NCBI GenBank assembly: GCA_947504035.1
Contig: CANNGA010000002.1
Span: forward strand, 1 to 64,000
Length of the DNA stretch: 64,000 nucleotides
Source: an uncultured Flavobacteriaceae bacterium
GTDB taxonomy: Bacteria > Bacteroidota > Bacteroidia > Flavobacteriales > Flavobacteriaceae
Reading direction: 5' to 3'
The stretch's first letter is position 1. Each line of letters starts with the position of its first letter. The notes under the pieces are model-generated. The model was not told where the DNA came from and did no database searches. It was given only the letters and a program-made list of their open reading frames with translations. The position numbers were made by a program, and so were the translations under genes. Below are positions 5,569-26,180 of this stretch, piece after piece.

Positions 5569-5653
5569 CGGAGAAAGAGGGATTCGAACCCCCGGAGGTG
5601 TGACCCTCAACAGTTTTCAAGACTGCCGCATTCGACCACTCTGCCATTTCTCC
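5569..5653 (-). tRNA. tRNA-Ser (anticodon UGA)
   Basis: Read on the minus strand, the acceptor stem GGAGAAA pairs with TTTCTCC and is followed by a G discriminator, as usual for serine tRNAs. The anticodon stem GCAGT/ACTGT encloses the loop CTTGAAA, giving anticodon TGA at 5617-5619. A long variable arm precedes a T arm with TTCGAAT. No CCA follows the discriminator base, so the end must be added by the CCA-adding enzyme encoded at 55088-56503. tRNA-Ser genes are common attachment sites for genomic islands, and the accessory block at 1-5.1 kb lies at its 3' side. Confidence 0.95.
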
Positions 5654-6644: not shown

Positions 6645-8804
6645 TTATAAAATCCTTTTAATTACAAATTCAGACCTTCTGTTACCTTCATGGTCTTCTT
6701 CTGAACAGGCTTCTTCTGAAGCACAAGGAATAATAGGATTTGATTCACCATAACCAATAGCCTTCATACGTTCTCCGCCTAAACCTTCTGAGGCCAGATA
6801 GTCTTTGGTGGAACTGGCTCTTTTTTGAGAAAGATTTTTATTGTATGTTTTATTCCCTCTAATGTCTGTATGCGATTCAATGTCTATTTCCATCTTAGGG
6901 TATTTGCGCATTAAGGCCAAAACAGGCTGTAGAATACGCTTTACATCGCGACGGATATACCATAGTTTGTAATCAAAATTAATATCGCCAGTTTCAATAA
7001 CTAAACGTCCGCGTACACGCTTAATTAAAGGCTCTGAAGCAATAACACGTTCAATTTCTTTTTCGAGATCAAATTTTTCTTTTTCTTTTTGGCGACGTAC
7101 CTCTGCTTCTTTTTCTTTTTCTTCAGCTTTTTTCTTCAGCTCTAGTTCTTTTTGTTGGGCTATAAGACGCAAGCGGGCGTCTTCAGCTTTCTTTTTAATA
7201 GCAGCTAGTGATACTAAGGCCATAGACGCATCATTCTTTTTGTACCTTTCATTGCCAATAGTAAGTTGGCGTTGCGCGGGTTGATACCCTTCTGCTTCTA
7301 CCTTTACCAAAACATTAAGATTACAATCACTGTCGAGGTTAAAACCACCACTATCATCTGTCATATAATAGCCCAAATCTGAAGTAGACGTATTTACGAC
7401 CTGAGTTATGGTTAAAGTGGCATTAGGAATAAAAGCTTTGGTGTCTTTATCTGTAATCACACCAGTAATGTATTGCTTACAATCTTCAATAATTAAAGGT
7501 TTTTCTTCTTTAAACCTGTAGATATCGTCGCTGCCTTTACCTTCTTTTCGGTTAGAGGCGATATAACCGTTTTGTAGGGTCTCATCTAAAACTAATGAGA
7601 AATCATCATAGCCTGAGTTTAACGGTAAGCCTAAATTGTCTGGTTTTTGAAATGTAGCATCTTTGAAAGCGGCCCAAAAGACATCCAAACCTCCAAATCC
7701 TAAATGGCCGTTAGACGCAAAATATAAATCGCCATTTGCAGCTATAAAGGGGAATTGTTCTCTGTGTTTGGTATTAATTTTAGGACCTAGATTTACAGGT
7801 GCGCTATAGGTACTATCTGAAGCAATATCTACATAAAAGAGATCGAAACTGCCTAAACTCTCAGGCATATCCGATGCAAAGTACAAACGTTTGCCATCTG
7901 GGCTTAATGCAGGATGTTCTACAGAATAAGTAGCGCCATTAAAAGGTAAGGGTTTCACGTTTGTCCATACGCTGTCTATTAATTCTGCTTTATAGAGTTT
8001 AAGGTGGGTCACTGCTTTATCGTCCTTAACCTCCTTACGTTTGTCGAAGTTATTTCTAGTAAAGTACATGGTGGTACCCTCTTTGTTAAAAGCCACAGTA
8101 GCTTCATGAAGTTTGGTGTTCACTTGGTTAGAAATGCTTTTCGGACTTGCATTGGGCGCAAAAACACTGTCTTTAGGTAGTGTATAAATGTCTAAAAAAG
8201 GCTCATTATTCCAACCGTAATAGCCATGGAATAATGAATTTTGCTTCTGTGTTTTTCTTGAAGCTGCGAATATGAAGTGGGTAGGCGTTTCAACAGCTCC
8301 AAATTCCGATTGAGGGGTATTTATAGCTAAGTTTTCTAAGTGGTAACGTTCGCCTATAGCGGCAACATTATCTAGCCGTTTAACTGCTGCATTAAATGCT
8401 TTACGCGCTGTTGTATCTTCTGCATAGGTATAGTATTCGCGCATTACGCTATTGGCATCCTCATAATTTCCAGATGCTCTTAAGGCATGCGCATATTTAA
8501 AACTGTTCTCGTAAGTTTGTGTTTCACTACGGTTAAGGAGATAGCCGTATAATCGGGCAGAAGCTTTTAAATCTCCTGTGTTGTAATAACAGGTGGCTAA
8601 TTGTTCTACAATACGCTTTGTTCTATGTTTGCGCATCACTTTTTCATACAAAGGAATGGCTTTGGCATAAAAAGCGCGGTTGTAATAGGTGTTAGCCTTT
8701 TTTAAGTCAGCACTAAATATAGGTTTTGCTTTAGGAATGCCCTCTTGAGCAAAGATAAAGCAACTAAAGAGTAATGTTAGTAGTGGTAATAATTTTTTCA
8801 TCAA
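6645..8804 (-). CDS. OmpA-family outer-membrane-associated protein with TPR and PD40 repeats
   Basis: A 719-aa exported protein. A signal peptide (MMKKLLPLLTLLFSCFIFAQ) is followed by TPR-like helices (about 30-140), WD40-like PD40 beta-propeller repeats (about 215-425, with HPALSPDGKRLYFASD), a carboxypeptidase-regulatory-like domain (about 440-530), a highly charged coiled coil (about 535-595) and a C-terminal OmpA/MotB domain. That last domain has IESHTDIRG and LSQKRA, the peptidoglycan-binding signature. This layout is common next to PorP/SprF genes in Bacteroidota (PorE-like proteins) and probably links the secretion or adhesin complex to the cell wall. It is the last gene of the operon, 8 nt after porP/sprF. 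Confidence 0.9.
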   Translation of the reverse strand: MMKKLLPLLTLLFSCFIFAQEGIPKAKPIFSADLKKANTYYNRAFYAKAIPLYEKVMRKHRTKRIVEQLATCYYNTGDLKASARLYGYLLNRSETQTYENSFKYAHALRASGNYEDANSVMREYYTYAEDTTARKAFNAAVKRLDNVAAIGERYHLENLAINTPQSEFGAVETPTHFIFAASRKTQKQNSLFHGYYGWNNEPFLDIYTLPKDSVFAPNASPKSISNQVNTKLHEATVAFNKEGTTMYFTRNNFDKRKEVKDDKAVTHLKLYKAELIDSVWTNVKPLPFNGATYSVEHPALSPDGKRLYFASDMPESLGSFDLFYVDIASDSTYSAPVNLGPKINTKHREQFPFIAANGDLYFASNGHLGFGGLDVFWAAFKDATFQKPDNLGLPLNSGYDDFSLVLDETLQNGYIASNRKEGKGSDDIYRFKEEKPLIIEDCKQYITGVITDKDTKAFIPNATLTITQVVNTSTSDLGYYMTDDSGGFNLDSDCNLNVLVKVEAEGYQPAQRQLTIGNERYKKNDASMALVSLAAIKKKAEDARLRLIAQQKELELKKKAEEKEKEAEVRRQKEKEKFDLEKEIERVIASEPLIKRVRGRLVIETGDINFDYKLWYIRRDVKRILQPVLALMRKYPKMEIDIESHTDIRGNKTYNKNLSQKRASSTKDYLASEGLGGERMKAIGYGESNPIIPCASEEACSEEDHEGNRRSEFVIKRIL

Positions 8805-8812
8805 TTCTATGT

Positions 8813-9772
8813 TTAGAAAAATCTTGGCGATTTTTTATACCCTTCTTTTAATCCGAATAAAGAGAGGTCGAATAATAATACGATTTCGTGAGAGCCATCA
8901 TTATAGCTAGAAAAGTCAGATACTGTAGCGTCATAAGCATAAGCTACTTTTAGGCTAGGAGCTATTCTAAAGCCTACAATACCACTTATGGCATCGTTAT
9001 GGCGGTAGGAAGCACCTATTTCAAAGCGGTCGTACAGTAGGGTATTTAAAGAGAGGTCTACATTAAGCGGTGCACCATTCACTTCTCGTACTAAAAATGA
9101 AGGTTTTAATTTTACCGCAGCACTTATAGGGATGACATACCCTCCAATAAGATAAAAATGGATTTCTTCTCGACCTTGGCTGTTAAAGGCTACGGCGTCA
9201 TCTAATTGTGTAGCTCGTAAAAAATTAGGCGCCGATACACCAATATAATAGTGGTCTGAAAAGAAATAAGCTCCTGCGCCTATACTAGGGAACGCTTGGT
9301 TAGCATCATTAGAGAATGCAGGATCGTTAGAATTTATTAAAATACCTGAAAATGCAGTATCATAAAGTGTGACACCTGCTTTAAGTCCTAAAGATAATTT
9401 AGCGTGATCTGTAATGTTTAATACATAGGCAAAGTCGGCGTTGATGTTTTTTTCATTGATTTCGATCACATCTTCTCCGATTTGATCGGATGTAAAGGTA
9501 AGCCCTAACTCTATGGTGTTAGAGAAAGGCGTATGTCCAAAAAATGAAAAAGTTCTCGGGCTACCAACTGTGCCTGTCCATTGTCTGCGGTAGTTGCCAC
9601 CTAGATTTAATGTTCCTAAGTCACGAGTCGCATAAGCGGGATTAATCACGCTCATGTTATAATTATATTGCGTGAATTGCGGGTCTTGCTGTGCCATTAT
9701 AAGGTTACAGCACAACACAACAATAAGAGGTAATAGCTGTTTGTACATGTTAAGTTGTATAGTGTAATTCAT
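8813..9772 (-). CDS. PorP/SprF-family type IX secretion system outer-membrane protein
   Basis: A 319-aa beta-rich membrane protein of the PorP/SprF family. It has a signal peptide followed by QQDPQFTQYNYNMSVINPAYA, the hallmark N-terminus of this family, and alternating strand patterns to the C-terminal LFDLSLFGLKEGYKKSPRFF. In Flavobacterium johnsoniae SprF is required to deliver the adhesin SprB to the surface, and the gene order adhesin-sprF is the same here. The ATG at 9772 overlaps the adhesin stop (TAATG). A second Met at 9748 (MYKQLLPLIVVLCC) gives a cleaner signal peptide and could be the true start. The pairing suggests that it handles the specific adhesin encoded immediately upstream. 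Confidence 0.88.
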   Translation of the reverse strand: MNYTIQLNMYKQLLPLIVVLCCNLIMAQQDPQFTQYNYNMSVINPAYATRDLGTLNLGGNYRRQWTGTVGSPRTFSFFGHTPFSNTIELGLTFTSDQIGEDVIEINEKNINADFAYVLNITDHAKLSLGLKAGVTLYDTAFSGILINSNDPAFSNDANQAFPSIGAGAYFFSDHYYIGVSAPNFLRATQLDDAVAFNSQGREEIHFYLIGGYVIPISAAVKLKPSFLVREVNGAPLNVDLSLNTLLYDRFEIGASYRHNDAISGIVGFRIAPSLKVAYAYDATVSDFSSYNDGSHEIVLLFDLSLFGLKEGYKKSPRFF

Positions 9773-13877: not shown

Positions 13878-14897
13878 TTACAATGTGTTGTAGGGTTGTT
13901 TTTTCTTGCACTTTACGGTATAAGATGCTATAACCGTGTTTCCTATTTTTGCATGGACGTTATAGGTGCCTTTTTTATCAAATACATGTGTTAGTTCTGC
14001 ACGCGTGTGTTGTGCTACAGCTGTTATTGGCAGTGTTGTTATTTTGAATTTATTACTAATTTCTAAGGTCATTTGCTTTTGGGGTGAAGTCTCTTCAAAG
14101 GTATAGGCAAATGTGACCGCTGTACCTGCTGTAATAGTGGTTATTAATTGCTGCGGGCTTACAGGAGTGATTTTTGTTTTAAAAGCAGCATTATAAACAA
14201 CGGGAGCTTTAGAAAAAGCCTCTAAAGTTAATGTTAGGTCTCCTAAACGCCATCGTGGGTTTTTTGCATAATGGTTTTTCGAAAATAATTCTGGTGCTGT
14301 TAAAAAATACCCGTCATTATAGTTTTTGATGAACTGATCTTTAGATATATCATAGTACCCACTAGCCCAAGTAGCGTCTGTAACATACCATTTATGATTT
14401 AGTTTAACAACATTCCAAGAGTGGTTAGGGATATCTACAGCTTTGTTTAGGATTTTACTGTAGCCTTCTACAATTTCACAAGAAATACCAGATGCATTTG
14501 AAAGTGCCTTAATAAGATAGGCATAACCTATGCAAACGGTTGCCTTATCTTCTATAAGGCGCTTGAAAAACGATTTGTGTATGCTTTTGTTCCACGCCTG
14601 TAATGCGGGTGTATTGTGATGTAATTTTTTAAGTTTTTTAGCAATACGCTCATTTAAATAATGGTCACTTTCAATATTAGAACACACCCAAGTATGAATG
14701 GCTCTAAATTGTTCAACTTGGGTGTCTAAATCTTTTGTAAGTTTATAGGCTAATAGCGGTAAATGGTGTAATGAAGCGCCATGATGTACTTGTGCGATGC
14801 TATCGGCTTTAGCAAAACTTATAGTTTTAAAATCCGATTGCTGCCCATAGCTTATTAAGCATGTACACCAAATACCAAGTAGTATTAAAAAACGCAT
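13878..14897 (-). CDS. Secreted transglutaminase-like protein
   Basis: A 339-aa protein from the start at 14897 (MRFLILLGIWCTCLISYGQQ, a good signal peptide). A start 27 nt earlier is possible but would lie inside the previous gene. The middle domain matches the transglutaminase-like fold: IHTWVCSNIESDH, then CIGYAYLIKALSNASGI with the candidate nucleophile Cys, NHSWNVVKL with His, and YVTDATWASG with Asp, in the order of a Cys-His-Asp triad. The C-terminal ~120 residues look like a beta-sandwich domain. The start overlaps the stop of the upstream gene (TAATG), so the two are co-translated. Related bacterial proteins act as peptidases or cross-linkers; the substrate here is unknown. Confidence 0.85.
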   Translation of the reverse strand: MRFLILLGIWCTCLISYGQQSDFKTISFAKADSIAQVHHGASLHHLPLLAYKLTKDLDTQVEQFRAIHTWVCSNIESDHYLNERIAKKLKKLHHNTPALQAWNKSIHKSFFKRLIEDKATVCIGYAYLIKALSNASGISCEIVEGYSKILNKAVDIPNHSWNVVKLNHKWYVTDATWASGYYDISKDQFIKNYNDGYFLTAPELFSKNHYAKNPRWRLGDLTLTLEAFSKAPVVYNAAFKTKITPVSPQQLITTITAGTAVTFAYTFEETSPQKQMTLEISNKFKITTLPITAVAQHTRAELTHVFDKKGTYNVHAKIGNTVIASYTVKCKKKQPYNTL

Positions 14898-15415
14898 TAA
14901 AATAAAGCTTTTACTTTTTGCCATAAGTTGTGCTTAGTTGTGTACGTTTCATTGGTTTGTTCGTCGCAGGTTATCAAAACATTGTCCAAATTTAGAACGA
15001 GGTCTAAAGGCGCTTGTTCTTTTTTAATAGTAACATATTGCGTTTGGTAACCTATATAACTTACTATTAATCGATCTCCTTCTTTAAGTCGCTTTGGAAA
15101 TTCGAATTTCCCATCAAAATCTGTTACGACCCCTATGTGTGTACCTTCTAATAAGATATGAGCTTCTGGTAGAGGTGTTTTTATGTCATCTGAAACCGTA
15201 CCTGTCACAAGTTGTGTGTCGTTTGTAGTGTTTGAGATTTGAATCTGTTGTGCTGGGGAGGCGTCTTGTGCATGGAGTGTTCCAAAACTAGATAGTGTGA
15301 TGGTTACTAAAGCAGCAATTCGCAGAGATTTTGATTGTATAAGCAATTGCAATGGATGTGTTTGTGCGGTTGTTTGTTTGGCGATGGTACTGTTGTTTTT
15401 TGCATTCTGTTTCAT
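14897..15415 (-). CDS. Small secreted protein with one carboxypeptidase-regulatory-like domain
   Basis: I chose Met at 15415 (MKQNAKNNSTIAK), giving 172 residues. It follows a TAnnTTTG box at 15439-15446, whereas the longer reading frame begins upstream of that box. The protein has a long polar N-region, a hydrophobic segment ending SSFGTLHAQ, and then a single CarboxypepD_reg-like beta-sandwich (GTVSDDIKTPLPEAHILLEG ... VVTDFDGKFEFP ... LIVSYIGYQTQYV). This domain usually stands at the N-terminus of SusC/TonB receptors, but here no receptor follows: a short tail closes the protein. It is translationally coupled to the transglutaminase-like gene, so the two may act together at the cell surface. 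Confidence 0.7.
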   Translation of the reverse strand: MKQNAKNNSTIAKQTTAQTHPLQLLIQSKSLRIAALVTITLSSFGTLHAQDASPAQQIQISNTTNDTQLVTGTVSDDIKTPLPEAHILLEGTHIGVVTDFDGKFEFPKRLKEGDRLIVSYIGYQTQYVTIKKEQAPLDLVLNLDNVLITCDEQTNETYTTKHNLWQKVKALF

Positions 15416-15438
15416 GAGATATGTGTTTAAGTGTTCTT

Positions 15439-15446
15439 CAAAACTA
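15439..15446 (-). promoter_or_regulatory. -7 promoter box of the carboxypeptidase-regulatory/transglutaminase operon
   Basis: TAGTTTTG on the minus strand fits TAnnTTTG exactly and would start transcription about 16 nt before the ATG at 15415. No clear -33 element is visible. Confidence 0.45.
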
Positions 15447-15635
15447 TAACAAACGATAAGGCTATACCACTTAAATTGAGTCAATAGCCCTTTTGAATGC
15501 GTGAATAGCTCTTTTGCGTGAGACGAAAAACATGTATACCGAAGTTGTTAAACATTAAAGCGCACAGATGGCCTTATTTGCCACATTTAAGTGTCTTTAA
15601 ACTGCTACTATTTAGAAGTAGATTCTTTGAAGCGC

Positions 15636-16812
15636 ATAAAAAAAGCAATAGGATCTTATGAAGGGATCCTATTGCTTTTATAACTAAACTAACTAACTAA
15701 ACTTTTTAACTATTGCTTCAGTCGATAGGTTGTAAAATACCTTACATGGTCATTAAAAAAAAAGACGTTTTTTTATTTAAGAAGTGAAGGTTAGGGGTAG
15801 CTTTTGAATGTGTTGCACAAAAAAAGCAATAGGATCTTATGAAAGTATCTTATTGCTTTTATAACTAAACTAACTAACTAACTAAACTTTTTAACTATTG
15901 CTTCAGTCGATAGGTTGTAAAATACCTTACATGGTCATTAAAAAAAAAGACGTTTTTTTATTTAAGAAGTGAAGGTTAGGGGTAGCTTTTGAATGTGTTG
16001 CACAAAAAAAGCAATAGGATCTTATGAAAGTATCCTATTGCTTTTATAACTAAACTAACTAACTAAACTTTTTAACTATTGCTTCAGTCGATAGGTTGTA
16101 AAATACCTTACATGATCATTAAAAAAAATGACGTTATTTTATTTAAGAAGTGGAGCTTAGGGGTAGGCTTTTGAATGTGTTATACAAAAAAAGCAATAGG
16201 ATCTTATGAAGGTATCCTATTGCTTTTATAACTAAACTAACTAACTAACTAACTAAACTTTTTAACTATTGCTTCAGTCGATAGGATGTAAAAGACCTTA
16301 CATAGTCATTAAAAAAAATGACGTTATTTTACTTAAGAAGTGGAGGTTAGGGGTAGGCTTTTGAATGTGTTGCACAAAAAAAGCAATAGGATCTTATGAA
16401 AGTATCCTATTGCTTTTATAACTAAACTTTTTAACTATTGCTTCAGTCGATAGGATGTAAAAGACCTTACATAGTCATTAAAAAAAATGACGTTATTTTA
16501 TTTAAGAAGTGGAGCTTAGGGGTAGCTTTTGAATGTGTTATACAAAAAAAGCAATAGGATCTTATGAAAGTATCCTATTGCTTTTATAACTAAACTAACT
16601 AACTAAACTTTTTAACTGTTGCTTCAGTCGATAGGATGTAAAATACCTTACATGGTCATTAAAAAAATAGGGCATTTTTTTATTTAAGAAGTGGAGGTTA
16701 GGGGTAGCTTTTGAATGTGTTGTACAAAAAAAGCAATAGGATCTTATGAAAGTATCCTATTGCTTTTATAACTAAACTAACTAACTAAACTTTTTAACTG
16801 TTGCTTCAGTCG
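15636..16812 (-). repeat. Tandem array of seven ~181-bp hairpin units with variable CTAA tract
   Basis: Seven near-identical units have the left stem (GCAATAGGATC) starting at 15645, 15826, 16011, 16193, 16383, 16551 and 16733, so spacings are 181, 185, 182, 190, 168 and 182 bp. Each unit has a 10-11-bp inverted repeat (GCAATAGGAT/ATCCTATTGC), a CTAA microsatellite of varying copy number, a conserved TTTTTAACTATTGCTTCAGTCGATAGG segment in two blocks, a small TGTAAG/TTTACA inverted repeat and a ~70-bp spacer. Most spacing differences are multiples of 4 nt from CTAA gain or loss. On the minus strand the hairpin is followed by seven T, like an intrinsic terminator; on the plus strand only four. 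There is no open reading frame. It could be an array of ~90-nt small RNA genes or a tandemly expanded intergenic element. Strand assignment is inferred. Confidence 0.85.
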
Positions 16813-17018
16813 AAGCGCAATGAAAGATCTTACAACTGAATTTAAAAAAAAGCAAAAATAAAAGTCATTTATTTTTAGAGTGATAACTTTTAGTAAAATA
16901 TATTTTGGTGTAATTTAATTCAATAAAATAAGTAAAAGGGTGTACTACAAATTTTGGGTATGAGCAGCCCTAATAGTATAAGGTCAGGATTACTATTTTA
17001 TTTACTAAAGACACATAA

Positions 17019-18302
17019 TTAATTATTCATAAGTCTTATAAGACGATCAGAATTATGTTCTACAAATTTTTTGGTTTCTTTAATATTGGCTTTTTTTAAG
17101 TATTCGGAAACTTCATGATTAAAAGATGCGTCTGCGTAATATAATGCATTTTCATTAATGCTATTTTTGTAGTGGACGTTTGCTTTATTGGCGATTAAAT
17201 ATTTTACTGTTTCCATACTGTTTCCTTTGGTTTTCTCTACACTTTTCCCCATTGCGTCATATAATATCACATTAATAGAAATATTGAAGCGTTGCGTTTT
17301 TTTGTTAAGGTCGTCCATTTGTCCGTTTAATTGAGCGGCATACATTAGTGGTGTAGCAGTACCTTTTCGAGAGCGTTGATTTATATTTGCACCATGGGCT
17401 AACAGAAATTTTAACATGGAAACATCACCTCGTATAGCGGCATAATGAATAGCAGCATAGCCATATTGAGAATGAAGTGCTTTAATGGAAGCCCCTTTGT
17501 TTAGTAAAATTTTTGATACAATGGTGTCTTTTGAAAAAACAAACGCATCTTTAAGCATTGTTTTAGAAATCCATTTTTCATTAAGGATTTGTTTTAAAAA
17601 GGCGATGTCACCAGAATTTCTAACCAAATTAAGAAATAGCTTTTCTTTTTTTTCTAGACTCATTTTGTTGTAGAATAACTTTAGGATATGAATACTCTTA
17701 GACTTTGTAGATAAGTCAATCACGGTTTTACCATTTGCATCTGTTATCGTATCTGAAGCATTATGATCTAATAGAAGTTGTGCTATTAGTGCGTTTTCAT
17801 TATCTACAGCAATATGTAATGCTGTGTTTTCCATTATAGCTTCAGTTTTTATGTTCACATTAGCTTTTTTGGAAATGAGTTTTTTTACCAAATCCATGTC
17901 ATTAAAGTAAGTCGCGTAGTGTAGTGCAGAAAAACCATTATAATAGTCGATAGTATCGACAGAAACGTCTTTTTCTAAAAGTTTTTCTGTGATTTCTTTC
18001 GATTTAGAATGAATAGCAAACAATAGTGGGGTAAAATTTAGAGAATCCGTTTCATTTAACATAAAATCAGCAGTAATAAGTTTATTTGCTATTTTATCAG
18101 CCTTCATTTCTAATGCATAATGAAGTGCGTTTCTACCTTCTTCAAATCTACAGGTGTCTAAGTTTATACGTAAAGCAAGTCTGTCAAATTGACTTAGGTT
18201 GTCTTGTTCAATACTTGAAGCTAATCTTATAAGATCACTTTTAGTGTCACAAGAGGATGTTATAAATAGAGTAATACAAATGAATAGCGTAAATAGTCTC
18301 AT
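17019..18302 (-). CDS. Ankyrin-repeat lipoprotein
   Basis: A 427-aa protein with a lipoprotein signal (MRLFTLFICITLFITSSC, lipidated Cys in the SSC box) and at least six ankyrin-type repeats. Examples are GRNALHYALEMKADKIANKL, FSALHYATYFNDMDLVKKLI, NTALHIAVDNENALIAQLLL and AAIHYAAIRGDVSMLKFLLA. Two middle repeats (about residues 215-265) are degenerate. Ankyrin domains bind proteins; anchored by a lipid in the periplasm or outer membrane, this protein would act as a binding scaffold, but no partner is suggested by its neighbours. It stands alone, with the hairpin/CTAA array downstream. Confidence 0.88.
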   Translation of the reverse strand: MRLFTLFICITLFITSSCDTKSDLIRLASSIEQDNLSQFDRLALRINLDTCRFEEGRNALHYALEMKADKIANKLITADFMLNETDSLNFTPLLFAIHSKSKEITEKLLEKDVSVDTIDYYNGFSALHYATYFNDMDLVKKLISKKANVNIKTEAIMENTALHIAVDNENALIAQLLLDHNASDTITDANGKTVIDLSTKSKSIHILKLFYNKMSLEKKEKLFLNLVRNSGDIAFLKQILNEKWISKTMLKDAFVFSKDTIVSKILLNKGASIKALHSQYGYAAIHYAAIRGDVSMLKFLLAHGANINQRSRKGTATPLMYAAQLNGQMDDLNKKTQRFNISINVILYDAMGKSVEKTKGNSMETVKYLIANKANVHYKNSINENALYYADASFNHEVSEYLKKANIKETKKFVEHNSDRLIRLMNN

Positions 18303-18700: not shown

Positions 18701-18776
18701 AAAAAAAGCAACAGGATAATCTGTTGCTTTTATAACTAAACTAACTAAACTTTTTAACTGTACTATCAGTCGATGA
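18701..18776 (-). repeat. Solitary diverged copy of the hairpin/CTAA element, downstream of clpB
   Basis: The order is the same as in the 15.6-16.8 kb array: hairpin, then ATAACTAAACTAACTAAACTT, then TTTAACTG and CAGTCGAT. The stem is AAAAGCAACAG/CTGTTGCTTTT, differing from the array stem by a paired change (T to C on one arm, A to G on the other) that keeps base pairing. On the minus strand it ends in seven T and lies 42-117 nt after the clpB stop, so it can serve as the clpB terminator. Confidence 0.8.
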
Positions 18777-18817: not shown

Positions 18818-21421
18818 TTATATGTGTTCTACCAAGTCGTTTTGATTTCTAAACACCAGTAAATTATCAAAAGCATCTAATAATATAATACTATCTGTAG
18901 TCACTTTACCAGCTAGAATTTCTTTACTTAACGCGTTTAGCACTTCTTTTTGAATGACGCGCTTTACAGGACGTACGCCGTACTCTGGGTTATAGCCTTT
19001 TGCAGCTAAATAGGTTACAGCTTCAGGTGTGGCATCAAACGTGATGCCTTGTTGTTCCAATGTTTTTGTAACCCCTTTTAATTGAAGTGCAACAATTTTA
19101 GAAATGTTGTCTTTGTTTAGAGGCGTAAACATAACCGTATCATCAATACGATTTAGAAACTCGGGGCGTACACTTTGTTTTAATAGTGCCATAACATCTA
19201 CTTTTGCAGCTTCTATCGCTGTATCAATATCTTTAGAGGCTTCAAAATGCTGTTGTATACTGCTACTGCCTATATTAGAGGTCATGATAATGATGGTATT
19301 CTTAAAATCAGCCATGCGTCCCTTATTATCCGTAAGGTGTCCTTCGTCTAAGACTTGTAATAGAATATTAAAAGTATCTGGATGTGCTTTTTCAATTTCA
19401 TCTAAAAGGACCACAGAGTACGGTTTGCGTCGTACAGCTTCTGTGAGCTGTCCGCCTTCATCATACCCCACATAACCTGGAGGGGCTCCAACCAAGCGAC
19501 TAACAGCATGGCGTTCTTGGTATTCGCTCATGTCTATTCTAGTCATCGCACTTTCATCATCAAAAAGATACTCGGCTAAGGCTTTGGCTAATTCTGTTTT
19601 TCCAACTCCTGTTGTTCCTAAAAATAAGAATGTGCCAATAGGTTTTTGTGGGTTTTGCAATCCTGCCCGGCTGCGTCTCACGGCATCACTAACAGCTTCA
19701 ATAGCTTCTTCTTGACCTACGACACGTTTGTGCAATTCGTCTTCTAAACGCAATAGTTTTTCGCGTTCACTTTGTAGCATTTTAGTAACAGGAATACCTG
19801 TCCATTTTGCAACAACTTCTGCAATATCATCATAAGTCACTTCTTCTTTGATTAGAGAGTGCTCGTCTTGCTTTAGCATATCGCGTTGTAAAAATTCCAG
19901 TTGGTCTTGAGCCTCTTTAATCTTGCCATAACGCAGTTCTGCCACTTTTCCATAATTGCCTTCTCGTTCTGCTTTTTCAGCTTCTAATTTGTAGTTTTCA
20001 ATCGCTTGTTTGGCGTTTTGAATGTTATCTACAATGTCTTTTTCACTTTTCCATTTGGCATTTAAGGCATTGCGTTGTTCTTTAATATTAGCTAAATCTG
20101 CTCGGAGACTTTTTAATTTTGTGTCGTCTTTTTCGCGTTTAATGGCTTCAATTTCAATTTCTAACTGCATGATACGTCTATCTAGAACATCTAATTCTTC
20201 GGGTTTAGAATTGATTTCCATACGCATTTTAGCAGCAGCTTCATCCATCAAATCAATCGCTTTATCTGGTAAAAATCGATTTGTAATGTAACGTTGGGAT
20301 AAGGCAACAGCGCCTATAATGGCATCATCTTTTATACGTACTTTATGGTGTGTTTCGTACTTCTCTTTAATACCTCTAAGTATAGATATGGCACTTTCGG
20401 TATCGGGTTCGTTCACAATAACTTTTTGAAAACGGCGCTCTAAAGCCTTGTCTTTTTCAAAATACTTTTGGTATTCGTCTAAGGTTGTTGCTCCTATGGC
20501 TCTAAGTTCGCCACGGGCCAAAGCCGGTTTTAGAATATTAGCGGCATCCATAGCACCTTGTCCGCCGCCAGCACCAACAAGGGTGTGAATCTCATCGATA
20601 AAGAGTACAATATCGCCTTCGCTTGTTGTCACTTCTTTAATAACGGCTTTTAAGCGTTCTTCAAACTCGCCTTTGTATTTAGCACCAGCGATAAGTGCGC
20701 CCATATCTAAAGCGAAAATTTGTTTATTTTTAAGATTTTCAGGAATATCACCATCTATAATTCTATGCGCTAAACCTTCGGCAATAGCCGTTTTTCCTGT
20801 CCCTGGTTCGCCCACCAAGATCGGATTGTTTTTAGTACGGCGTGATAATATTTGAAGTATTCTGCGAATTTCTTCATCACGGCCTATCACAGGGTCTAAC
20901 TTACCGTCTTGTGCTAACTGGTTGAGGTTCTTTGCATATTTGTTTAAGGCATTATAAGTGTCTTCTTGATTTTGAGACGTTACAGTGTCGCCCTTTCGCA
21001 ATTCGTTTATGGCAGCTTTTAAAGCGGTTTCAGTCACGCCTTGGTCTTTTAGCATTTGCGCAATCCTACTTTTAGACTTGTAAATGGCTAAAATTAAATG
21101 CGCTGTAGATACAAAATCATCTTTTTGCTGTTGCGCGATAAGCGCAGCTTCGTTTAGCGTTTTTCCAGCGTCTCTCGAAAGCATAAGGTCTCCACCAGAA
21201 ACTTTAGCAAAGCTTTCCAGTTGTTTGTCTAGTGCTTGTTTGAGGCTGTTTATATTAACATTGAGTTTTTTTAATATGAAGGGTAAAACATTTTCATCTA
21301 CTTCAAAAATACCTTTAAAGAGGTGTTCGTTTTCAATGTGTTGATGCCCAAAACCTTGCGCTATCAACTGCGCTTGCTGTAGGGCTTCCTGCGACTTTAT
21401 GGTATAATTATTCAAATTCAT
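18818..21421 (-). CDS. clpB: ClpB disaggregase (AAA+ chaperone)
   Basis: An 867-aa HSP100 protein that, with DnaK, extracts polypeptides from aggregates. The Clp N-terminal domain (about 1-145) is followed by AAA+ module 1 with Walker A GEPGTGKT and Walker [11 protein letters not shown]. The M-domain coiled coil (about 400-530, charged [20 protein letters not shown]) precedes AAA+ module 2 with [31 protein letters not shown] and the D2-small domain ending [19 protein letters not shown]. The M-domain distinguishes it from ClpA and ClpC. Length is normal for ClpB. It is monocistronic and divergent from ytxJ, and the solitary hairpin/CTAA element follows it. Confidence 0.97.
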
Positions 21422-24494: not shown

Positions 24495-26180
24495 ATGAAA
24501 GACTTTAGGCAATCTTTATTTCATCCTTTAGCTGTAGATGCGGCTCAGGATATACCAGAACAGTTTACCTTTCCCTTTTATTACACGCCTCATGCGTTAA
24601 GTATTATGGCAGCAAAAGAGCTGCAATCGTATTTAGAGACCCAAACTGATTTTGATCATAATTTTGGATTGAATCCCGCGCAAACCGGACTGCAAATAGG
24701 AAAGATGTTTGGAGTAATGGTAGTGCAGGATGCACAGGGGCATTTGGGGTACTTAGCTGCTTTTTCAGGAAAATTAGCTGAAAAAAATTTTATAAATGGT
24801 TTTGTGGCTACGGTATACGATACCTTAGATACAGAAGGATTCTATAAAAAAGGGGAGGCGCAATTGAATGCTTTAAATGCTGAAATTGAGACCTTAGAAG
24901 CACAGGGAGAAATCGCAACAGCTCAACTACAGCTTGCTAATTACAAGAAGGCTTCAGAAATGGAATTGAAAGCCTTTAAAGAAACGATTAAAATCAAGAA
25001 AAAAGAACGCCAATTAAAGCGTACGCATGCTTTGCAAACAATGGATGCAACCGCCTACGATGTCCTGCTTGAAGCTTTGAGAAAGGAGAGTGTATTTTAC
25101 CATTACCGTTTAAAAGATTTAAAGCAAGATTGGACTTCTAAAATAGCCCTTGCAGAGACACAGTTGCAGTCTTATTTAGAACCGATTTCTCATAAAAAGG
25201 AGGCACGTGCAGCATTGTCTGCCAAATTGCAAAAACGGTTGCACGAACAGTATCGGTTTTTAAATGCCAATGGCCAGATTAAAGACTTATTAGCCATTTT
25301 TAAACCTACAAAAACACCAACACCTCCAGCGGGCTCTGGTGAATGTGCGGCACCAAAGTTGTTTCAATATGCGTACGAGAACGCTTTACAGCCTATTGCT
25401 ATGGCCGAGTTTTGGTGGGGCGCTTCTCCTAAGTCTGAAGTCCGCCAACACAAACAATTTTATCCCTCTTGCCGTAGCAAGTGTGAACCTATTTTAGGAC
25501 ATATGATGCAGGGGTTACAGGTGGAAGCGAATCCTATTGATCAGATACCAGAATATAAAGCGCCTTTAGATATTGTATATGAAGATGACTATTTGTTATT
25601 GGTAAATAAACCTCATGAGTTTTTATCGGTACCTGGAAAACAGGTAACGGCTTCTGTATTAACGCGCATGCGGGACTATTTACCAAAAGCGAAAGGGCCC
25701 TTATTGGTTCACCGTTTAGATATGTCTACTTCAGGACTACTTTTAGTTGCTAAAAACGAGAAGACACATAAAAATTTACAAAAGCAATTTATAACACGTA
25801 CAATTAAAAAACGTTATGTGGCCTTATTGGATGGGGAGCTTACGACTACGTCTGGGGTGATCGACTTGCCATTACGTGTCGATTTAGACCACCGGCCACA
25901 GCAATTGGTTTGTTACGAACATGGCAAGCCTGCGCAAACCCGATACGAGGTTGTTGGCGTTGAAAAGGGTAAAACTAGAATTCATTTTTACCCTATAACC
26001 GGTCGTACACATCAATTACGTGTGCATGCCGCTCATGTAAATGGGTTGCATACAGCCATTGTTGGGGATGATCTTTATGGCACTAAAGGGACGCGTTTGC
26101 ATTTACATGCAGAAGCCTTGTCCTTTGAGCATCCTGTAACTCAAGAACTCTTAACGATTACTTGCAAGGCGCCATTTTAA
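24495..26180 (+). CDS. RluA-family pseudouridine synthase with long N-terminal extension
   Basis: A 561-aa protein from Met at 24495 (MKDFRQSLFHPLAVDAAQDI). The C-terminal third is a standard RluA catalytic domain: IVYEDDYLLLVNKPHEFLSVPG, LVHRLDMSTSGLLLVAKN with the catalytic Asp in HRLD, KRYVALLDG, and GRTHQLRVHAAHVNG. The first ~340 residues are an extension not found in canonical RluA. It has a helical, strongly charged coiled-coil part and a conserved-looking PPAGSGECAAPKLFQYA block followed by YPSCRSKCEPILGHMMQGL with three Cys. Large RluA paralogues of this layout occur in several bacteria. The enzyme should isomerise uridines in structured RNA in the cytoplasm; the target is unknown. 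Convergent with the next gene, 32 nt apart. Confidence 0.88.
   Translation: MKDFRQSLFHPLAVDAAQDIPEQFTFPFYYTPHALSIMAAKELQSYLETQTDFDHNFGLNPAQTGLQIGKMFGVMVVQDAQGHLGYLAAFSGKLAEKNFINGFVATVYDTLDTEGFYKKGEAQLNALNAEIETLEAQGEIATAQLQLANYKKASEMELKAFKETIKIKKKERQLKRTHALQTMDATAYDVLLEALRKESVFYHYRLKDLKQDWTSKIALAETQLQSYLEPISHKKEARAALSAKLQKRLHEQYRFLNANGQIKDLLAIFKPTKTPTPPAGSGECAAPKLFQYAYENALQPIAMAEFWWGASPKSEVRQHKQFYPSCRSKCEPILGHMMQGLQVEANPIDQIPEYKAPLDIVYEDDYLLLVNKPHEFLSVPGKQVTASVLTRMRDYLPKAKGPLLVHRLDMSTSGLLLVAKNEKTHKNLQKQFITRTIKKRYVALLDGELTTTSGVIDLPLRVDLDHRPQQLVCYEHGKPAQTRYEVVGVEKGKTRIHFYPITGRTHQLRVHAAHVNGLHTAIVGDDLYGTKGTRLHLHAEALSFEHPVTQELLTITCKAPF

Follow-up and report, generated by a model that had tools for sequence, protein, structure and literature searches.

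A seven-unit tandem array related to the 3′ end of clpB in an uncultured Flavobacteriaceae bacterium

In Vibrio cholerae, arrays of type VI immunity genes have been described in which effector-immunity genes are gained and lost with homologous recombination; that report (PMC5361080) places these arrays in the 3′ part of the type VI clusters, "without specific integration sites". None of the ingredients of the present locus, namely terminators, tandem repeats and cassette exchange, is new in kind. The locus analysed here lies in a 64,000-nucleotide stretch of DNA from an uncultured Flavobacteriaceae bacterium (assembly GCA_947504035.1, contig CANNGA010000002.1, positions 1 to 64,000), hereafter the window. 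It contains a tandem array of seven hairpin-bearing units, which we read, with a probability of about 0.6, as a sevenfold-amplified 3′ module of the clpB type, forming stacked terminators and probably a seam for cassette recombination. The portion of the open-access literature covered by our search yielded no description of this module or of its place at cassette borders.

The array is the single 181-bp array in the TRF output (15634-16813, minus strand, 6.5 copies, 91% matches). Unit mapping resolves it into seven units of about 181 bp, starting at 15638, 15819, 16004, 16186, 16376, 16544 and 16726. A preliminary description had also counted seven units, with spacings of 181, 185, 182, 190, 168 and 182, which agree exactly with the mapped starts; the hairpin, the minus-strand T7 and the plus-strand CTAA tract that it reported are present in all seven. 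Read on the minus strand, a UUAG-repeat tract is followed by the hairpin and U7, and the units share with a copy behind clpB the order CGACTGA, AGTTAAAAAGTTTAG..., ATAAAAGC hairpin, T7. The cores, delimited on this strand from sequence and covariance model, span 15638-15725 (unit 1, with CGACTGAAGCAATAG, UUAG tract, hairpin and U7), 15819-15910 (unit 2), 16004-16091 (unit 3), 16186-16281 (unit 4), 16376-16450 (unit 5), 16544-16631 (unit 6) and 16726-16813 (unit 7), with lengths of 88, 92, 88, 96, 75, 88 and 88 bases. Unit 4 has the longest tract and unit 5 the shortest, with 13 bases fewer. The sequence GTTAGTTNGTT occurs nine times in the window, always inside the array, where shuffled sequences lead one to expect 0.34 occurrences.

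Differences in unit spacing had been put down mostly to gain or loss of CTAA. This holds for the 4-bp tract steps, the exception being the 13-base shortening of unit 5, and the spacer contributes further 1-bp indels. The spacer makes up about 95 bp of each unit and is without clear source. Variable columns number 4 of 75 in the core versus 13 of 93 in the spacer (p=0.075), which is only suggestive of a core under more constraint. The stem arms are near-constant across the seven copies, with few positions differing; the arm change reported for unit 2 is present and gives an A-C mismatch in the minus-strand RNA. The region had been called gene-free, and no open reading frame of 60 amino acids or more was found inside the array.

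Between 9772 and 21421, the main genes are encoded on the minus strand. They include clpB (18818-21421, an open reading frame of 867 amino acids, named by eye), an ankyrin-repeat gene (17019-18302, 427 amino acids, with a start that looks lipoprotein-like by eye; open reading frame and family search) and, downstream of the array, a gene for a CarboxypepD_reg-like protein (14897-15484; open reading frame and family search). An eighth, diverged copy of the module, absent from the preliminary description, forms the clpB 3′ end at 18701-18773 on the minus strand, starting 44 bases past the clpB stop codon, and is recognized by sequence and covariance model from its tract, GCAACAG hairpin and U7. 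The ankyrin gene thus has the clpB copy on one side and the array on the other, unit 7 being the first unit downstream of it. The position directly after clpB is held by the eighth copy and the seven units follow the ankyrin gene instead; we therefore class the array as a set of module copies and do not equate it with the end of clpB. Matches to the ankyrin protein at E ≤ 1e-20 are found in two of 60 genomes, its own and G004, and no effector adjoins its gene within the window. A type VI link through the G004 homologue was considered and rejected, none of the six neighbouring open reading frames scanned matching a type VI family. The window also contains a minus-strand tRNA gene at 5569-5653.

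A clpB 3′ module, recognized by a tract, an AAAAGC hairpin and a U run, is present in 11 of 12 genomes of the genus, including the one studied here, and the array units have the same three parts. Its anatomy may be summarized as a G/U-rich tract of UUAG (elsewhere UUGG), a GC hairpin closed by AAAAGC...GCUUUU, and a U run; the layout after clpB stop codons of the genus is often TTTAGTTTGGTTGGTTAGTTTGAAAAGCAACG...CGTTGCTTTTTTT. The exception is G004, whose clpB end is without the tract and has a different stem, and the G008 tract is interrupted. For analysis of the stem, 20 of 26 collected sequences were aligned; units 2, 3 and 6, G004 and two G011 copies, one of them truncated at a contig end, were omitted, and without unit 2 the alignment conceals one minus-strand A-C mismatch. 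Eight of the 12 stem pairs are altered on both sides (shuffled mean 5.3), in rows that are related to one another, and the covariation should be read accordingly. The other four pairs are invariant, and 89.0% of the alignment cells pair. The covariation score is 0.347 versus 0.125 for shuffled alignments, with none of 500 shuffles as high, while further pair types do not exceed the shuffles (14 versus 12.5, with 137 of 500 as high).

With the covariance model built from this alignment, R1, scores are 56.4-73.2 bits for the array units and 57.9 for the clpB copy; this copy and four of the units had themselves been part of the training set. In the genome studied here, matches with E below 1e-6 comprise all seven units, the copy behind clpB and C21:63810-63877, with weaker ones after these. 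Among 120 Flavobacteriaceae genomes drawn evenly, including this one, 37 have R1 matches at E ≤ 1e-4 and 83 have none under the strict filters applied. The C-terminus of ClpB is encoded directly upstream in 25 of the 29 loci inspected, the window's own locus being left out of this count. Since 11 of the 20 model rows are clpB ends, R1 matches show conservation rather than selectivity for clpB. The preliminary description had suggested a comparison with Rfam, for example Flavo-1; in Rfam 15, no family reaches its gathering threshold in the window except a tRNA, and all array matches are sub-threshold. An exact, longer motif was found in four stretches of the GTDB collection, from which records of this genome may have been excluded: two come from a record that fits G011 and two look coding by eye.

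Because this module stands in sense orientation at the end of clpB in 11 of 12 genus genomes and follows clpB at 25 of the 29 family loci inspected, the array, whose strand had been left uncertain, can now be assigned to the minus strand, and the terminator-like hairpin noticed there was correctly identified. The units are homologous to the clpB 3′ end and lie in sense orientation. With the module conserved after clpB and its stem covarying, the array is best explained as an amplified clpB-type 3′ end. The copies would have arisen by tandem duplication and unequal recombination, and the UUAG tract by slippage.

The stem lies directly before the U run on the sense strand in all seven units and in the clpB copy, an anatomy that makes each unit a putative intrinsic terminator. 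A polymerase coming from clpB would thus meet one terminator, and one coming from the ankyrin gene seven consecutively. A terminator scan of 464 kb of the genome found 42, seven of them in the array and clpB stretch; TTAGTT lies upstream of only one of the 35 others and GTTTAG of none, so terminators of this genome do not, as a rule, carry the tract. A second, simple terminator scan listed neither the array hairpins nor the clpB hairpin. The motif TTTAGTTAGTTW was tried as a genome-wide 3′-UTR signal and rejected, since the 12 genus genomes together have 110 matches to it versus 133 to the reversed control. Elsewhere in the genome, a doubled TTTAGTTAGTTT tract is followed by a GTGCGAT hairpin and T8 downstream of an open reading frame of 354 amino acids (L056, G000:C17:13988-14011, G000 being the genome studied here), and L062 and L085 have ends that look similar.

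The sister genome G011 offers a second view of the module. There, clpB is followed by a module, open reading frames of 334 and 204 amino acids, neither of which has a Pfam match over the cut-off, and two further modules. A second cassette follows, with genes for TssD/Hcp, a Tae4 amidase effector and a 101-amino-acid open reading frame among others, and then two more modules, of which the second is truncated where the contig stops. A further contig opens with two modules, the first cut, followed by deoC; the locus is thus split over two contigs and its adjacency is presumed. The first 156 bp behind the module match at 83% between the two cassettes, which near their 3′ ends have a further 59-bp piece in common (80% alike). 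The Hcp gene has an in-frame TGA at L089:7418, indicating either a pseudogene or an error of assembly. Each of the two cassettes has, close to its 3′ end, an attC-looking palindromic repeat (L089:6490-6590 and 8768-8860), with five matches in G000 (C1, C13, C17, C26 and C33) and one more in G011 (C22).

In G001, G007, G008 and G009, clpB and its module are directly followed by a DeoC-family gene, and the remaining genus genomes have other genes, named by eye, at this place. G100, which belongs to another genus, has in succession clpB, a module, a DeoC-family gene, a second module and deoC. Among the 12 genus genomes the module is repeated at clpB only in G000 and G011, with different spacers in the two and interleaved with genes in G011. 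TssD occurs in three of them (G000, G011 and G004), so that repeated clpB modules are present in two of three Hcp-bearing and none of nine Hcp-free genomes, small numbers from related genomes. An Hcp or effector gene lies between repeats in one of the two G011 cassettes; the window has the ankyrin gene alone. G000 has fourteen TssD/Hcp matches on many contigs, and at the five places viewed, repeat-protein and lipoprotein-like genes follow by eye. As the G011 modules separate cassettes between clpB and deoC, the repeats probably also provide the homology by which cassettes behind clpB are gained, lost and swapped, and the ankyrin gene may be one such cassette.

The same kind of tract and hairpin ends a conserved intergenic RNA candidate, aligned from eight genus genomes (alignment A2, a count that excludes G006), which carries a UUGGUUGGUUAGUUAG tail plus terminator. 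Its copy in the genome studied here is at C3:227872-227925 on the minus strand (L233:1873-1926); weak model hits in G008 and G011 that were read turned out to be other sequences. All eight aligned candidates have TTTGGCA, one C (T in G009), five bases and TTG. Upstream of the own-genome copy this takes the form TGGCAC-N5-TTGCT, a sigma-54-like arrangement; the string resembles the sigma-54 consensus. An Rfam search with the own copy and two others of the genus gave no overlapping match on their strand at gathering score (E up to 0.5). The L156 copy overlaps a sub-threshold RsaA match (28.1 bits, gathering 50) and the L233 copy a sub-threshold Phe_leader match (26.9 bits, gathering 55). A different element with tract and terminator occurs in G070 (L236) as two tandem copies 322 bp apart (C13:24677-24736 and 24999-25058), antisense to the two flanking genes, one for a class II tRNA synthetase and the other for a Plug-domain protein.

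These stand-alone elements bear on two other explanations. The preliminary description had raised the possibility that the array consists of small RNA genes; every unit would then be an independent gene, with its start in the spacer and a minus-strand RNA of about 90-170 nt. The tails of the intergenic candidate and of the G070 element speak for this, as does a weak sigma-70-type match before the tract in units 1-5 (nine of 12 letters). However, sigma-70-type sites are fewer than in shuffled sequence (10 versus a mean of 17.3), with none listed in units 6 and 7. The Bacteroidetes promoter consensus is TTG...TAnnTTTG. Scanned at 8 or more of 9 letters over 15501-17000, it gives two minus-strand hits, both upstream of the array at 16886-16923, and none on the plus strand, where shuffles lead one to expect 3.5 and 4.3; the array itself has no hit on either strand, nor a sigma-54-like box in its units, and these sequence scans do not reveal a promoter in every unit. 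Most homologous copies examined are moreover clpB 3′ ends and not separate genes, and we regard small RNA genes as unlikely. The tail common to the intergenic candidate and the G070 element also keeps a protein-binding interpretation in consideration, although we consider it a decidedly long shot. Tract and hairpin would form a tail by which an RNA-binding factor of Flavobacteriaceae recognizes both clpB mRNA and stand-alone small RNAs; with transcription continuing beyond the ankyrin gene, the array would act as a sponge that titrates this factor, as well as a type VI cassette seam. The idea that an RRM protein binds a GUUAGU-like tract comes from Musashi, and RbpB is also of the RRM type; this particular reader was rejected, since PF00076 was not found in the genome.

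Other explanations concern the repeats as such. As an inert satellite, a by-product of slippage and unequal exchange, the array would contain copies that add nothing beyond the first terminator. Tract length and spacer do vary among the units, and ten of the 12 genus genomes are without clustered copies by R1, but the repetition of clpB modules in two genomes with different spacers, gene-interleaved in G011, and the scarcity of stem-arm differences among the seven copies make this improbable. A mobile repeat (MITE or REP) or an integron attC array might be suspected from hairpin repeats that border genes and from the separate attC-looking palindromes at the G011 cassette ends. The core sites of attC are GTTRRRY and RYYYAAC, and exact matches to these are absent from units 1-6 on either strand; nor are copies dispersed genome-wide as in MITE or REP families, those at E below 1e-6 being limited to the array, the clpB end and C21:63810, and the array has no Rfam match. 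We therefore hold this origin to be very unlikely. Least credible is the attenuator that had been proposed, in which a segment before the tract repeats the 5′ arm and competes with it for the 3′ arm of the hairpin. The segment, GAAGCAATAG, does match in units 1-5, but units 6 and 7 have GAAGCAACAG in its place and it is not kept in the clpB copy or the G011 copies either; the predicted folds of units 1-6 retain the terminator stem. An attenuator is thus not supported.

If the array is an amplified clpB-type 3′ module, it leads to a chaperone mRNA 3′ end that is conserved in many genera and lies outside the families of Rfam 15, and whose tail is shared with a conserved intergenic RNA candidate. 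Should that tail bind a protein, it would give a handle on RNA regulation in Flavobacteriaceae. The Bacteroides RNA-binding protein RbpB (PMC11697453) would exemplify the kind of protein that might read a G/U tract, with the difference that no RRM domain (PF00076) was found here. The conserved sRNAs of Flavobacterium psychrophilum, e.g., Rfp18 (PMC9723704), are likewise conserved structured RNAs of the same family. With intrinsic (Rho-independent) terminators, the units have in common their place past a stop codon and a GC stem directly before a U run; they differ by the conserved UUAG/UUGG tract ahead of the stem and by the sevenfold stacking. Terminator modules here mark cassette borders behind a housekeeping gene, one cassette carrying a type VI effector. 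What they appear to have in common with the Vibrio cholerae immunity arrays (PMC5361080) is gene gain and loss with homologous recombination; unlike those arrays, the present cassettes lie behind clpB and have terminator modules as their borders.
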